The position numbers were made by a program, and so were the translations under genes. A stretch of DNA of 64,000 bases from assembly GCA_944324345.1 (NCBI GenBank), contig CALUVT010000001.1, positions 620,001 through 684,000 on the forward strand, given 5' to 3'. This DNA comes from Candidatus Gastranaerophilales bacterium. GTDB lineage: Bacteria > Cyanobacteriota > Vampirovibrionia > Gastranaerophilales > Gastranaerophilaceae. The notes beneath the pieces were generated by a model. That model was not told where the DNA came from. It saw only the letters and a list, made by a program, of their open reading frames with translations, and ran no database searches. Of this stretch, positions 980-32,519 are shown in pieces. The number at the start of each line of letters is the position of its first letter. Within the stretch, counting starts at the first letter, position 1.

Positions 980-3346
980 CTAATTAATATCAACAACGCT
1001 AACTCCATCTCCGCCTTCGGCATCCTCTCCGGGTCTGAATTTTGCAACGTATGGTGATGTTGATAAGAAATCTCTGACAGCTGATTTCAGTGCACCTGTG
1101 CCGTGTCCGTGGATAATCATGACAGATGCAAGGTTTGCAAGGCTTGCTTTATCAAGGTAAAGTTCCAAACTGTCAAGAGCATCCTCGACTTTATACCCCC
1201 TTAAATCAAGCGTATTAGAGATGTTTGTTTTACGAAGTTCAAATTTTTCCAATGAGCTTGGGCGATATACGTTTTCTTTTCTTTCGTAAACTGAATCGTA
1301 AGGGGCAAGTTTTTCTGATTTTATTTTGGTTTTAAAATTTCCCATTTGAACGGTAACGTTTTCATTTTTATCCGGTAGTGAAAGTATTGTAACAGGTTGG
1401 TGAAGTTCTTTTAGAATTAGCTTGTCGCCTGTTTTGATTTTAGACCAGTCAATTTTTTCATAGTGTTGTTTTTCATCAAATTCTGATAATTTACCTTTAA
1501 ATTTTTGTTCTGTTATTGCTAGTCTTGCATATGATCTGCGAGCTATTTTTTCTGATTTTTCCCTTCTCAGTTCATCCAAGATTTCTTTAATTTCCGCTTT
1601 TGCTTCAAGCATTTCTCTGTCAAATTTATCTTTTATTATTTTGACGGTTTTCTTTTTATCCTTTTTTAGGGTTGCAAGTGATTCTTCGTATTCTGATTTT
1701 AGGGTTTGGGATGTTTCTTTTAGGTTTTCAGCTTCTTCAAGATTGTGGGCAAGTTTTGCCTGTGTTTCTTGTAACTTTTCTACTACAAGTATTGAGGGGT
1801 CTTTTGTTGAAACCAAAATGTTTTTTGCCTTTTCTGTTATATCTTTGTCAAGCCCAAGATTTGCTGCAATGGCTATTGCATTACTCAGTCCAGGAATTCC
1901 TATTAGAAGTTTGTAGGTCGGTTTTAATGTTTCTGTATCAAATTCTACAGATGCGTTTTTAAAATACGGATTTGTGTACTCAAGTGTTTTTAATTCTCCA
2001 TAGTGTGTTGTTACTGTGGAAAGGACATTTTTTTCAGAAAGTTTTTCAAGTATAACTTGAGCTAGAACTGCACCTTCCACGGGATCTGTTCCAGCACAGA
2101 TTTCATCAAGAAGGACAAAGCTTTTTTCGTTACTTAGTTTTAAAATTTCTATGATATTTGTCATATGTGATGAAAAAGTCGAAAGATTCTGTAAGATATT
2201 TTGATCGTCGCCAATATCTGCAAAAACGTTTTCAAACGGGTAAACTTTTGCATTGGTACATGGCAAAAACATTCCTGCTTTTGCCATAAGAATGAAAAGT
2301 CCTATGGTTTTTAATGTTACTGTTTTCCCGCCGGTGTTTGAACCTGTTATAATTACGGATTTGTAGTCTTTCCCTATTTCAAAATTGTTTGTAACTACAC
2401 TTTCAACATTACCTATCAAAAGCGGGTGCTTCATATTTTCAAATTCAAGAATTTTATGTATAACTATTTCAGGTTCTGTTGCTTCAATTTTTACTGCGTA
2501 TCTGGCTTTTGCAAAGTGGTAGTCAATTATGGCAAGAGTTTGTTCTGTAACGGCAAGCTCTTTTATAATATCTTTTACAAGAGATGTTAAACCTGCAAGA
2601 ATTCTAACTATTTCAGAGTGAATATTTGATTTAATTTCTCTAATTTTATTATTTAAAGGAACAATTTGTTCCGGTTCTATATAAAAAGTTTTGTTGGTTG
2701 CCGAAACATCATGAACAATTCCCGGGACTTTATTCTTTGATGATGCCATAACTTGAAAAACAATTCTGTCGTCACGTGTGGTGTAAATATTCTCTTGAAG
2801 ATGTTTAGAAAATTCTGTTGAATTTAATAGAGAATTTACGGTATTTTTGAGATTTTTTTCGTTATCGCGTAAGGCGGAATAAAGACCTTTCAACTCCAAA
2901 GTTGCATCTTGTTTGATATTAAAGTTTTCGTCAAAAGTGGAAAATATTTTTTCTTCCAAATCTCTGTCTACAACCAAATTTGATGCCTCAGTTCTAATTA
3001 TTGCTTCATCAGACAAATTATCGTGAAGAAATTTTTTTACAAGTCGGGATGTTCTGAGAGTTTTGGCAACATCTATTAATTCCTCTTCGGAAAGATATGT
3101 AGAATTAATGTGTTGCTTAATAGTGTCAATGTCTGCTACAAATTCTATAGGAATATCAGCGGGCATATCAAGGATGTATTTTGCTTCTGTAGTGTATTTT
3201 AATTCATTTTTAATTTTTATTATATCGCTGTATGGTACAGTTTTTAAGCATATTTCCTTGCTTTGTTTTGTCTTTGTGAACCCTGAAAGTATTTGTAGTA
3301 TTTTATCAAATTCCAGAGATTTTAAACTTTTTTCCAGTATACTCAT
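980..3346 (-). CDS. mutS2: Endonuclease MutS2 (MutS-like ATPase with Smr domain)
   Basis: 788 residues, the usual MutS2 length. The core and coiled-coil region comes first. The ATPase follows with Walker A GSNTGGKT (335-342) and a Walker B segment LLDEICAGTDP, then a long Lys/Glu-rich coiled coil. The C-terminal Smr nuclease domain holds LDLRG and HGHGTG. In this family MutS2 acts on recombination intermediates, or splits collided ribosomes in Bacillus; it is not the mismatch-repair MutS. No Shine-Dalgarno precedes the ATG at 3346. A TTGTAA-17-TTTAAT promoter ends 6 nt before it, suggesting a leaderless message. Confidence 0.95.
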   Translation of the reverse strand: MSILEKSLKSLEFDKILQILSGFTKTKQSKEICLKTVPYSDIIKIKNELKYTTEAKYILDMPADIPIEFVADIDTIKQHINSTYLSEEELIDVAKTLRTSRLVKKFLHDNLSDEAIIRTEASNLVVDRDLEEKIFSTFDENFNIKQDATLELKGLYSALRDNEKNLKNTVNSLLNSTEFSKHLQENIYTTRDDRIVFQVMASSKNKVPGIVHDVSATNKTFYIEPEQIVPLNNKIREIKSNIHSEIVRILAGLTSLVKDIIKELAVTEQTLAIIDYHFAKARYAVKIEATEPEIVIHKILEFENMKHPLLIGNVESVVTNNFEIGKDYKSVIITGSNTGGKTVTLKTIGLFILMAKAGMFLPCTNAKVYPFENVFADIGDDQNILQNLSTFSSHMTNIIEILKLSNEKSFVLLDEICAGTDPVEGAVLAQVILEKLSEKNVLSTVTTHYGELKTLEYTNPYFKNASVEFDTETLKPTYKLLIGIPGLSNAIAIAANLGLDKDITEKAKNILVSTKDPSILVVEKLQETQAKLAHNLEEAENLKETSQTLKSEYEESLATLKKDKKKTVKIIKDKFDREMLEAKAEIKEILDELRREKSEKIARRSYARLAITEQKFKGKLSEFDEKQHYEKIDWSKIKTGDKLILKELHQPVTILSLPDKNENVTVQMGNFKTKIKSEKLAPYDSVYERKENVYRPSSLEKFELRKTNISNTLDLRGYKVEDALDSLELYLDKASLANLASVMIIHGHGTGALKSAVRDFLSTSPYVAKFRPGEDAEGGDGVSVVDIN

Positions 3347-9569: not shown

Positions 9570-9629
9570 ATGAAGCAATTTGTTTTGGAAAACTTCGGGG
9601 GGGGGGCAGTTCAGAGCTTCTTCAACTAA
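9570..9629 (+). CDS. Leader ORF of prepilin locus 2 (19 codons, contains G10)
   Basis: ATG at 9570 follows AAGGAA at a normal distance. It encodes MKQFVLENF, three glycines from the G tract, then six residues and TAA (9627-9629). With one added G (or a -1 slip) the frame would continue without a stop into the prepilin at 9644. As read it is either a short leader peptide or the OFF form of a longer prepilin start. Confidence 0.6.
   Translation: MKQFVLENFGGGAVQSFFN
9597..9606 (+). repeat. Ten-G tract, prepilin locus 2
   Basis: Ten consecutive G in an AT-rich region, inside the leader ORF. The downstream prepilin frame is offset by +2 nt from the leader, so 11 or 8 G would join them. Confidence 0.95.
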
Positions 9630-9643
9630 GTAGTTGCGTAAAA

Positions 9644-10393
9644 ATGCAAAAATGTCATAATAGTGACATGATACATCACGATAAAAAATCTGCGTTTACT
9701 CTTGCAGAAGTATTAATAACACTTGGTATTATAGGGGTTATTGCGGCAATAACTATACCAACTTTGGTAACTAATTATCAAAAAAAAGTTACTGTAAATA
9801 GGCTTAAAAAAAATTATGCAACAATTTCTCAGATGTTTACAAAAGCCATAAATGATTATGGTGACCCAAGTGGGTGGAGTTTTGATTTTGGAGAAATGGG
9901 AGAAGGTAATAGTAATATAAATGCTGTTTTACCGATAGTTGCTAAAAAATACTTTTTACCTTATTTGGATGTAATGGATGATTGCGGTATTTCGTGTGCT
10001 AAAGTCCCAAATACGTATAGATATATGAATAATGCCTTGGTTAATCAATTCCATACTAGATTATTTTATACGATGTTTTTGAAAGATGAATCTATAATTT
10101 TTTTATCAGTGAATAGTAATGGGAATACAGGTTTATTGAGTGATTTGATAATTTATGTTGATTTAAATGGGTTAAAAGCTCCAAATATTTTAGGTAAAGA
10201 TGTTTTCGGCTATTATTTAAATACTTCAGGAGTAAGCAAACTTAATTTTTGGGGTCTAACAAGTAAAAATGTGTCAAGAGATGTCTTATTAAATGATTCT
10301 ATTTCAGGCTGTAATAAAAATGCTTGGGGTAGACTATGTGGAGCATTAATAGAACGTGACGGTTGGAAAATCAGTGACGATTATCCTTGGTAA
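9644..10393 (+). CDS. Type IV prepilin-like protein, locus 2
   Basis: 249 residues from the first in-frame ATG at 9644, but that ATG has no Shine-Dalgarno. The frame is open upstream through the G tract to 9566, so the real start is likely the leader ATG at 9570 after a frame change. The presequence has the shared pattern Cys, CHNSD and HH, then KKSA before FTLAEVLITLGIIGVIAA, with Ala rather than Gly at -1. The globular part carries VDLNGLKAPNILGKD and ends CGALIERDGWKISDDYPW. The same ending occurs in the remnant at 33460. Processing by the prepilin peptidase at 40019 is expected. Confidence 0.8.
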   Translation: MQKCHNSDMIHHDKKSAFTLAEVLITLGIIGVIAAITIPTLVTNYQKKVTVNRLKKNYATISQMFTKAINDYGDPSGWSFDFGEMGEGNSNINAVLPIVAKKYFLPYLDVMDDCGISCAKVPNTYRYMNNALVNQFHTRLFYTMFLKDESIIFLSVNSNGNTGLLSDLIIYVDLNGLKAPNILGKDVFGYYLNTSGVSKLNFWGLTSKNVSRDVLLNDSISGCNKNAWGRLCGALIERDGWKISDDYPW

Positions 10394-10469
10394 TATGAGA
10401 GTATATTGCAAAAGCTGCAAAAATTTGTTACTATAATAATGTTAAACAATATTTAAGGAGCGATGAGCA

Positions 10470-10529
10470 ATGGAAAAGATTAAAATTAGATTAACAGAGA
10501 ATTCCGGGGGGGGGGCCCTCACAGCTTAG
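10470..10529 (+). CDS. Leader ORF of prepilin locus 3 (19 codons, contains G10)
   Basis: ATG at 10470 lies 9 nt after AAGGAG (10455-10460). It encodes MEKIKIRLTENS, three glycines, ALTA and TAG (10527-10529). TATAAT at 10432-10437 is the likely -10. This is the only start codon with a ribosome site that could serve the downstream prepilin. Confidence 0.65.
   Translation: MEKIKIRLTENSGGGALTA
10506..10515 (+). repeat. Ten-G tract, prepilin locus 3
   Basis: Ten G inside the leader ORF. The prepilin frame is +2 relative to the leader, the same offset as at the other four loci. Confidence 0.95.
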
Positions 10530-11254
10530 GTATCCGGTTCCTCTCTTGTAAAAAAAAGAATGAATGCTATAATAGTGATATAAAACATCACTATTGCAAA
10601 AGATTTGCATTTACTCTCGCTGAGGTATTAATAACTCTTGGAATTATAGGAGTTGTTGCGGCGTTGGTTCTTCCCGGAGTGATAAAAGGCTATCAAAGGA
10701 AAGTTATGAAAACTCAATTTGATAGAGCAGTTGCGGTAATAAATCAGGCCGTTACTCGTATGCAAGACGATGTTGGCGGGGATTTATGGGGAACATATTA
10801 TTATGGCAAGGGAACAGAGTTAAGGAAACATTTTTATTCATATTTGTCAGGGACCTTAGAAACAAGAACAAAAACTAAAGACGTAAATCCATATTATGTA
10901 TCTTTAAAAGGTTCTACAACTACTATGCATTATTGCCCTGCAGGTTGTTGTTCAAATCCAGTTTTTAATAGTTTCATATCATCTGATGGGATTATGTATA
11001 ATGTTTGTACAAGAGATAATGTTATAAATATCCCTTTTGATATTAACGGAAATGATAGAGGACCAAACAAATGGGGTATAGATTTATTTGATTTTGATTA
11101 TACATCTGCGAATAAGCTTACAAATAACTATACTGATAGAGGTGGGTGTTATGCATATTATAAAAACAGTACATCTTCAAATGTAAACGACGGAATAAGT
11201 TGTACGCATGCTGCAATGAAAGATCCAAAATATTTTGACAAAATAGATTTTTAG
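10511..11254 (+). CDS. Type IV prepilin-like protein, locus 3 (no start codon of its own)
   Basis: Given from the G tract because the reading frame has no ATG, GTG or TTG between the tract and the prepilin signal; the first possible start (TTG, 10664) lies inside the N-terminal helix. The open frame encodes a presequence with SCKKKNECYNSD and HHYCKRFA, then FTLAEVLITLGIIGVVAAL. The mature part has FDINGNDRGPNKWGID and several cysteines. Expression seems to require joining to the leader ATG at 10470 by a +1 change in the G tract. A 9-bp hairpin (10571-10579 with 10587-10595) lies in the presequence region. Confidence 0.75.
   Translation, partial: GGPHSLGIRFLSCKKKNECYNSDIKHHYCKRFAFTLAEVLITLGIIGVVAALVLPGVIKGYQRKVMKTQFDRAVAVINQAVTRMQDDVGGDLWGTYYYGKGTELRKHFYSYLSGTLETRTKTKDVNPYYVSLKGSTTTMHYCPAGCCSNPVFNSFISSDGIMYNVCTRDNVINIPFDINGNDRGPNKWGIDLFDFDYTSANKLTNNYTDRGGCYAYYKNSTSSNVNDGISCTHAAMKDPKYFDKIDF
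10523..10662 (+). repeat. Prepilin 5' cassette shared with 32513-32652
   Basis: From AGCTTAG after the G tract to the conserved N-helix, this segment is nearly identical to 32513-32652 (constant offset 21990), including the hairpin. Downstream of the helix the two genes diverge. Confidence 0.8.
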
Positions 11255-25673: not shown

Positions 25674-25721
25674 ATGAAAAAGATTTGTTGTGCCGAAATT
25701 TCGGGGGGGGGGCGTTTCTAA
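25674..25721 (+). CDS. Leader ORF of prepilin locus 4 (15 codons, contains G10)
   Basis: ATG at 25674 after GGAGG at normal spacing. It encodes MKKICCAEIS, three glycines, RF and TAA (25719-25721). One more G would read on into the prepilin frame without a stop. Confidence 0.6.
   Translation: MKKICCAEISGGGRF
25703..25712 (+). repeat. Ten-G tract, prepilin locus 4
   Basis: Ten G within the leader ORF; the prepilin frame is +2 relative to the leader. Confidence 0.95.
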
Positions 25722-26648: not shown

Positions 26649-26696
26649 ATGAAAAAGATTTGTTGTGCCGAAATTTCGGGGGGGGGGCGTTTCTAA
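26649..26696 (+). CDS. Leader ORF of prepilin locus 5 (15 codons, contains G10)
   Basis: Identical to the locus 4 leader: GGAGG ribosome site, ATG at 26649, stop TAA at 26694-26696 just after the G tract. Confidence 0.6.
   Translation: MKKICCAEISGGGRF
26678..26687 (+). repeat. Ten-G tract, prepilin locus 5
   Basis: Ten G within the leader ORF; the prepilin frame is +2 relative to the leader. Confidence 0.95.
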
Positions 26697-32447: not shown

Positions 32448-32519
32448 ATGAAAAATATTATCAAAACGCACTTACAAGAGGTATTTAGACCCGTCGGGGG
32501 GGGGGCACTCAAAGCTTAG
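32448..32519 (+). CDS. Leader ORF of prepilin locus 6 (23 codons, contains G10)
   Basis: ATG at 32448 after AAGGGAG. It encodes MKNIIKTHLQEVFRPV, three glycines, ALKA and TAG (32517-32519). The ALxA-TAG ending is nearly the same as locus 3. Confidence 0.6.
   Translation: MKNIIKTHLQEVFRPVGGGALKA
32496..32505 (+). repeat. Ten-G tract, prepilin locus 6
   Basis: Ten G within the leader ORF; the prepilin frame is +2 relative to the leader. Confidence 0.95.

Follow-up and report, generated by a model that had tools for sequence, protein, structure and literature searches.

Pilin antigenic variation at Neisseria pilE proceeds via a G-rich 5′ DNA element and recombination between copies. At the prepilin loci described here, unlike pilE, every locus consists of a full open reading frame (ORF) with no sign of silent partial copies, and the element is a homopolymer inside a coding leader. 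The closest precedent is the sortase-dependent pili of Bifidobacterium breve (bbr_0113 and bbr_1889), in which measured replication slippage at a G tract switches the pili (PMC9187656). Both cases involve a gut commensal, pilus genes, and a G10/G11 tract in the 5′ part of a gene that is out of frame in the reference, where a one-base change fuses two ORFs (PMC9187656). B. breve differs in having one or two such loci per genome and sortase pili, compared with about 45 loci per genome and type IV prepilins here, and the passages considered mention no fixed flanking motif, G/C orientation rule, or module exchange, all of which are found here (PMC9187656).

Campylobacter phasomes resemble the present loci in that poly-G/C tracts are numerous in surface genes, with as many as tens of loci in one genome, and turn expression on or off by frameshift (PMC6321876). 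Their tracts are spread in length from 7 to 15 (53% G9 and 26% G10), and ON states in draft genomes are near neutral drift, whereas here 84% of tracts are exactly 10 nt long, a single phase (-1) prevails, the in-frame fraction is only about 5 to 10%, and most targets belong to a single gene family (PMC6321876). Programmed frameshift and slippage cassettes (prfB, dnaX, the IS3 family, and mxiE) share with these loci overlapping ORFs in a -1 or +1 relation, a slippery homopolymer, and a nearby 0-frame stop; they differ in that here orientation follows replication, G and C runs are interchangeable, and no common RNA stimulator was found (PMC5009743). A search of open-licence literature found no account of phase variation for Gastranaerophilales, Vampirovibrionia, or Melainabacteria.

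The window, a stretch of 64,000 nucleotides from the genome of a Candidatus Gastranaerophilales bacterium, contains the prepilin gene termed locus 3 (coordinates are those of the window, + strand unless noted). A Shine-Dalgarno sequence, AAGGAG (10455 to 10460), lies 9 nt 5′ of the ATG at 10470, which opens a leader ORF of 19 codons (MEKIKIRLTENSGGGALTA; 10470 to 10529). Its TAG stop (10527 to 10529) falls four codons past a run of exactly 10 Gs at 10506 to 10515, the putative switch, which is set in the motif TC/CC-G10-C..AGCTT. Relative to the leader, the prepilin is encoded in the -1 frame (codon starts = 2 mod 3), which is open from 10508, inside the tract, to the stop at 11252 to 11254 and reads GGGPHSLGIRFLSCKKKNECYNSDIKHHYCKRFA^FTLAEVLITLG. 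It comprises a tract-to-cleavage segment (10516 to 10609; ..PHSLGIRFLSCKKKNECYNSDIKHHYCKRFA), common to locus 5 of the window and absent from the locus 3 orthologue, and the prepilin body (10610 to 11254), which begins FTLAEVLITLG.. and has the N_methyl motif. The cleavage site, RFA^FTLAEV, conforms to the motif (G/A)^FTLxEVLITLGIIG of the type IV prepilin/N_methyl family (PF07963). The PF07963 match at locus 3 scored 21.0 bits (E = 2.4e-4) against a cut-off of 21.2; in the PF07963 search of its own genome the site reached 24.5 bits, above the cut-off, and TIGR02532 gave 18.2 bits, above its cut-off of 16.3. The short basic leader with a start codon 5′ of the cleavage site that marks the family was not found at locus 3, where the leader predicted after frame fusion is ~47 residues long.

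According to the sequence-only reading, the locus 3 prepilin frame contains no ATG, GTG, or TTG between the G tract and the cleavage site, and this was confirmed on the sequence. The ATGs at 10560 (MNAIIVI, then stop) and 10564 (ML, then stop) do lie in other frames and terminate at once, and the sole start with a ribosome-binding site is indeed the leader ATG, which is out of the prepilin frame. The TTG at 10664 is within the mature N-terminal helix, the ATG at 10463 shares the prepilin frame but terminates at 10481 (MSNGKD), 5′ of the tract, and the only alternative table-11 starts in the frame are ATC 10532 and ATA 10580. A run of 11 Gs (or 8) would join leader and prepilin as one ORF, and either one added G or a one-base backward slip would link them. 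Leader and tract are read here as a translational phase-variation switch ahead of a type IV prepilin, operating by replication slippage, OFF at G10 and ON at G11, with a probability of roughly two in three.

Five G10 tracts occur in the window, against 0.23 eight-G matches expected by chance, and they are therefore not chance occurrences. Besides that of locus 3, they belong to locus 2 (9573 to 10393; leader MKQFVLENFGGGAVQSFFN, G10 at 9597 to 9606), locus 4 (tract at 25703 to 25712; leader MKKICCAEISGGGRF), a further prepilin (tract at 26678 to 26687) with the same leader and segment as the 25703 copy, and locus 5 (tract at 32496 to 32505; leader MKNIIKTHLQEVFRPVGGGALKA), whose segment is 92% identical to that of locus 3; in each of them the prepilin is in the -1 frame. 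The 1.76-Mb genome has 103 nine-G windows and 71 PF07963 prepilin-type sites, 45 of which are prepilins with leader, tract, and open downstream frame; these loci were selected by the G run alone, and nearly all tract sites were covered. The tract-to-cleavage frame is open in all of these tract prepilins, the bodies are mostly intact ORFs of 150 to 310 codons, and 10 of the 45, including locus 3, are devoid of starts in the stretch from tract to cleavage site.

The genes concerned encode surface-exposed products, namely, prepilins and one acyltransferase-3. The latter carries AAGC..AAAATCG-C10-GAAAA in frame (LKIAPPPKMQ) inside an Acyl_transf_3 gene (L064:1689-1698; C3:52088 of this genome; E = 3e-26), and this O-acyltransferase-like gene is likely a second class of phase-variable surface gene. 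At three other loci (L416, L390, and L085), the cleavage motif is tandemly repeated at the prepilin N terminus, e.g., AFTLAEGATHVD..NVRHTAFTLAEVLITLG, a pattern suggestive of stacked 5′ modules. The C10 motif also occurs in the 5′ noncoding part of an unrelated gene whose own start is further downstream (L099). In G000, the end of C1 (700371) and the start of C3 (68) have in common an identical ~67-bp sequence that ends in a T run and G9 (acttagaattt..gactttttttttt-GGGGGGGGG) and is probably a repeat that broke the assembly at these contig ends.

The leader-to-prepilin relation was -1 in 181 of about 190 sampled length-10 loci (~95%). In a sample of 212 tract-prepilin loci, the phase counted from a good ATG with a ribosome-binding site was -1 for 128 G10 (G-type) and 52 C10 (C-type) loci. 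The codon register of the tract varies, and the upstream and downstream registers compensate, with -1 kept in all six register/orientation classes: registers (0,1), (1,0), and (2,2) account for 86, 18, and 24 G-type loci and 6, 43, and 4 C-type loci, respectively. After removal of loci >70% alike, -1 was found in 89 of 92 G-type and 39 of 42 C-type loci, versus 43 and 23 expected from permuted registers, and none of 5,000 permutations reached the observed result. A conserved shift site with a conserved -1 relation, as in programmed -1 frameshifting or transcriptional slippage, is thus present. A 0-frame stop follows within 15 nt of the tract in 126 of the 128 sampled G-type -1 loci, compared with 14 of 128 for the third frame. 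Codon-position counts in the tract-to-cleavage segment, taken as a test for translation, were 124:134:151 (p = 0.25), with no bias among the three positions.

Between tract and cleavage site, 87 of the 212 sampled loci have no start, and 76 of these 87 are still -1. In L141 and L147, the C10 tract adjoins the cleavage site (..PPPE-GFTLAE), and L088 also passes directly from the one to the other. The description of locus 3 as the clearest case for a frame change therefore stands as regards the missing start, but the superlative does not, since C10 abuts the cleavage site in L141 and L147 and the 87 sampled loci lack a start as well. Loci with G11 and the motif are in frame in 16 of 19 cases, and most G9 loci are +1; a change in length thus does alter the frame, and the putatively hypermutable repeat is positioned accordingly (-1 at G10). 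Only about 3 of 190 loci are in the +1 phase, which would be ON at G9. Members of the AEMMVV-type prepilin subfamily tend to be in frame (5/10 versus 9/202; Fisher p = 1e-4) or to have no tract. One member in this genome, with an FTLAEMMVVMLI N terminus (L032:897-2501; C1:211896), carries YadA head repeats together with a Peptidase_S74 chaperone domain.

Almost all of the matches listed in a motif search over 85,000 species are from Candidatus Gastranaerophilales, and the flanked motif pattern had no match in eight sampled genomes from other families of the order. G10 runs are found in 29 of 33 congeneric genomes (one genome per species), with about 50 such tracts per genome in most congeners and a maximum of about 170. 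Related loci vary in tract length, with 148 G9, 1,621 G10, and 150 G11 exact runs in the 33 genomes, counts that take in a minority of runs outside the motif. Conservation of the flanks in relatives is inflated because these were sampled partly with motif-containing patterns. Phage involvement was considered and rejected, the sole motif match among viral contigs being an unrelated GC-rich contig (L357; IMGVR_UViG_2765235700_000002). On that contig, an open frame (LASGGGLPSFFTAQTAPY) contains the G10 toward its 3′ end and may represent a separate phage gene subject to phase variation.

About a quarter of the sampled loci have C10 on the sense strand with the flanking motif inverted (AGCT..G-C10-GA), and their genes are on the other strand. 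The G run holds one orientation over long chromosome blocks, and third-position GC skew, calculated separately for the genes of each strand, flips sign where tract orientation flips. At all 47 of 47 tracts of this genome, whatever the gene direction, the G run is on the GC-skew-positive strand, presumably the leading strand. The same holds for 29 of 31 tracts in G007, where the two exceptions are located next to one skew sample with a local anomaly and close to a skew switch, respectively; in G004, G10 orientation is uniform in 18 of 19 contigs with two or more tracts, and the remaining contig switches once. As the G run is tied to the replication strand rather than to gene direction, the constraint appears to act at DNA replication. 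The strand rule points to DNA polymerase slippage as distinct from RNA polymerase or ribosome slippage, though both may happen; the independence from replication direction that characterizes programmed frameshifting was not seen at these 47 and 31 tracts. Loss of mismatch repair was rejected as the source of tract instability, as mutS1 and mutL are both present in the genome. A second MutS-type gene in the window (1664 to 2749, - strand) scores 134 bits to the mutS1 model, below the cut-off, and is MutS2-like.

The syntenic orthologue of locus 3 in G040 (69% identical protein, same neighbours) has an ordinary start, AGGAG..ATG AGC AAA GGA TTT ACT, and neither leader nor tract; leader and tract therefore constitute an exchangeable 5′ module. 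Locus 3 and locus 5 are identical at 111 of 120 bases from the tract start on, match at only 13 of the 60 bases upstream, and diverge again in their bodies. Same-genome G-type pairs have the downstream part but not the leader in common in 28 cases, only the leader in 16, and both in 11, which makes the tract a frequent boundary of exchanged pieces. The locus 3 body and its orthologue differ with dN 0.19 and dS 1.35 (dN/dS about 0.14), and the gene is therefore maintained under purifying selection. The earlier claim that expression of locus 3 needs a frame change is well supported, given the lack of an in-frame start, the recurrence of -1 across three registers, two orientations, and many species, and the selection on the body; it is likewise well supported that the tract is where this change must occur. 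As to its kind, the evidence favours a change of length in DNA, i.e., phase variation, over recoding in each cell, with neither proven.

The segment of locus 3 contains a sigma-70-like -35/extended -10 sequence, TTGTAA-16-TGcTATAAT (10546 to 10573), that matches no more than in shuffles for this stretch, and a dyad, GTGAT-N7-ATCAC (10575 to 10591), with the ATA at 10580 that is ATG in many paralogues. In 72 loci, the pattern TGnTATAATnGTGAYAT..ATCAC is conserved at synonymous positions of the segment, placed like a promoter whose start would be the codon that is ATA in locus 3. The dyad was rejected as an RNA hairpin, since outer pairs fail and compensatory changes were not seen, and remains a DNA motif; TGnTATAAT with the dyad may be a promoter, an operator, or a recombination site. 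A noncanonical or leaderless start inside the segment, served by this promoter-like site and leaving the leader as a regulatory or relic ORF, would account for the exact placement of the site upstream of codon 10580 and for its retention in the same kind of loci genus-wide, and would yield a short basic prepilin leader (MKHHYYKKQ-G). It is nevertheless very improbable. The equivalent codon is Ile or Val, not Met, in 17 of 67 loci with the segment and is therefore not a general start, most sampled loci lack the segment (L088, L141, and L147 run from tract to cleavage site directly), no ribosome site precedes codon 10580, and the fixed -1 relation and the frame open back to the tract would go unexplained. 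Internal initiation was accordingly rejected as a general mechanism, for want of a conserved Met at the candidate position and because the segment is missing from many loci. Decay, with the loci serving as a silent store of pilin cassettes for gene conversion or being pseudogenes, is improbable. Most loci are out of frame in consensus genomes, are mosaic with junctions at the tract, and do not maintain internal starts, as such copies would be, but their bodies are mostly intact, the dN/dS of locus 3 is low (although the orthologue branch itself is ordinarily expressed), and decay would scramble the ribosome-binding site, ATG, and exact -1 phase that are kept.

The genes would simply be in frame if the true runs were 11 Gs, miscalled in sequencing or assembly. 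Homopolymers are error-prone, and annotated G-tract lengths can be wrong, as the B. breve report warns (PMC9187656). Such an artefact is hardly credible here, as runs of 10 are found again and again in assemblies made independently from short reads (megahit, SPAdes, and idba contig names) that also resolve G9 and G11, and a miscall could not produce the conserved stop past the tract in the G10 frame; the short-read assembly names and these 0-frame stops likewise rule against long-read homopolymer error. The main rival, although unlikely, is programmed recoding in every cell, through insertion of an extra G when RNA polymerase transcribes the 10-nt run or through -1 slippage of ribosomes on GGG GGG or CCC CCC. 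A small, fixed proportion of each prepilin would then always be made, and length 10 with phase -1 would be kept as the recoding cassette. RNA-level recoding is kept in contention by the fixation of length and phase, far stronger than in Campylobacter. The strongly selected 0-frame stop directly past the tract also suits it, as do the predominance of -1 over +1 although DNA length changes are symmetric, and a few loci of other lengths (L044, G11; L144, G12; L223, G9) that have regained -1. It is opposed by the locking of the G run to the replication strand, with C10 in genes of the other strand, a rule that RNA-level slippage does not need. Furthermore, recoding would have to work equally on G10 and C10 mRNAs, whose sense-strand flanks differ, so that no RNA stimulator is shared. 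With about 8% of tracts at G11 and in frame, and with the in-frame state favoured in the AEMMVV-type subfamily, -1 would seem to be the nonexpressed state.

Translation can begin only at the leader ATG and, with G10, meets a stop soon after the tract, the prepilin lying in -1. Under phase variation, the preferred reading, an occasional slippage event during replication of the G run would lengthen it by one G, so that a small proportion of cells switch the pilin ON, and loss of that G would restore the OFF state at G10. The switch may be passed between prepilin genes as a 5′ module, with recombination junctions at the tract and in the conserved N-terminal helix. Locus 3 may simply be OFF in the population that was sequenced, or would be expressed only at the low level that slippage allows. 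A uniformity of length and phase well beyond that of Campylobacter phasomes counts against phase variation. If length changes of +1 and -1 were equally common, loci ON at G9 should equal those ON at G11; the rarity of the former counts against a plain switch, of which symmetric one-base length variation with one-sided phase is not expected. The one-sided phase could stem from selection favouring a longer, less stable ON tract, from descent of a few modules, or from useful low-level -1 recoding from G10. A speculative and rather unlikely extension is that TC-G10-C..AGCTT is a dedicated, replication-oriented DNA element at which some factor both adds one G, switching the pilin, and shuffles leader modules among dozens of prepilin genes, as one programmed diversification system across the genus.

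Gene callers truncate or miss the 5′ ends of tract prepilins, which is a warning for annotation. Because the G run is confined to the presumed leading strand, these loci provide a direct means of studying how homopolymer slippage depends on replication direction, and the fixed -1 phase makes it possible to ask whether a poly-G site works by DNA switching or by RNA recoding. If the phase-variation reading is right, these surface fibres would represent one of the largest single-family phase-variable repertoires known, with ~45 prepilins per genome and >1,000 genes genus-wide.
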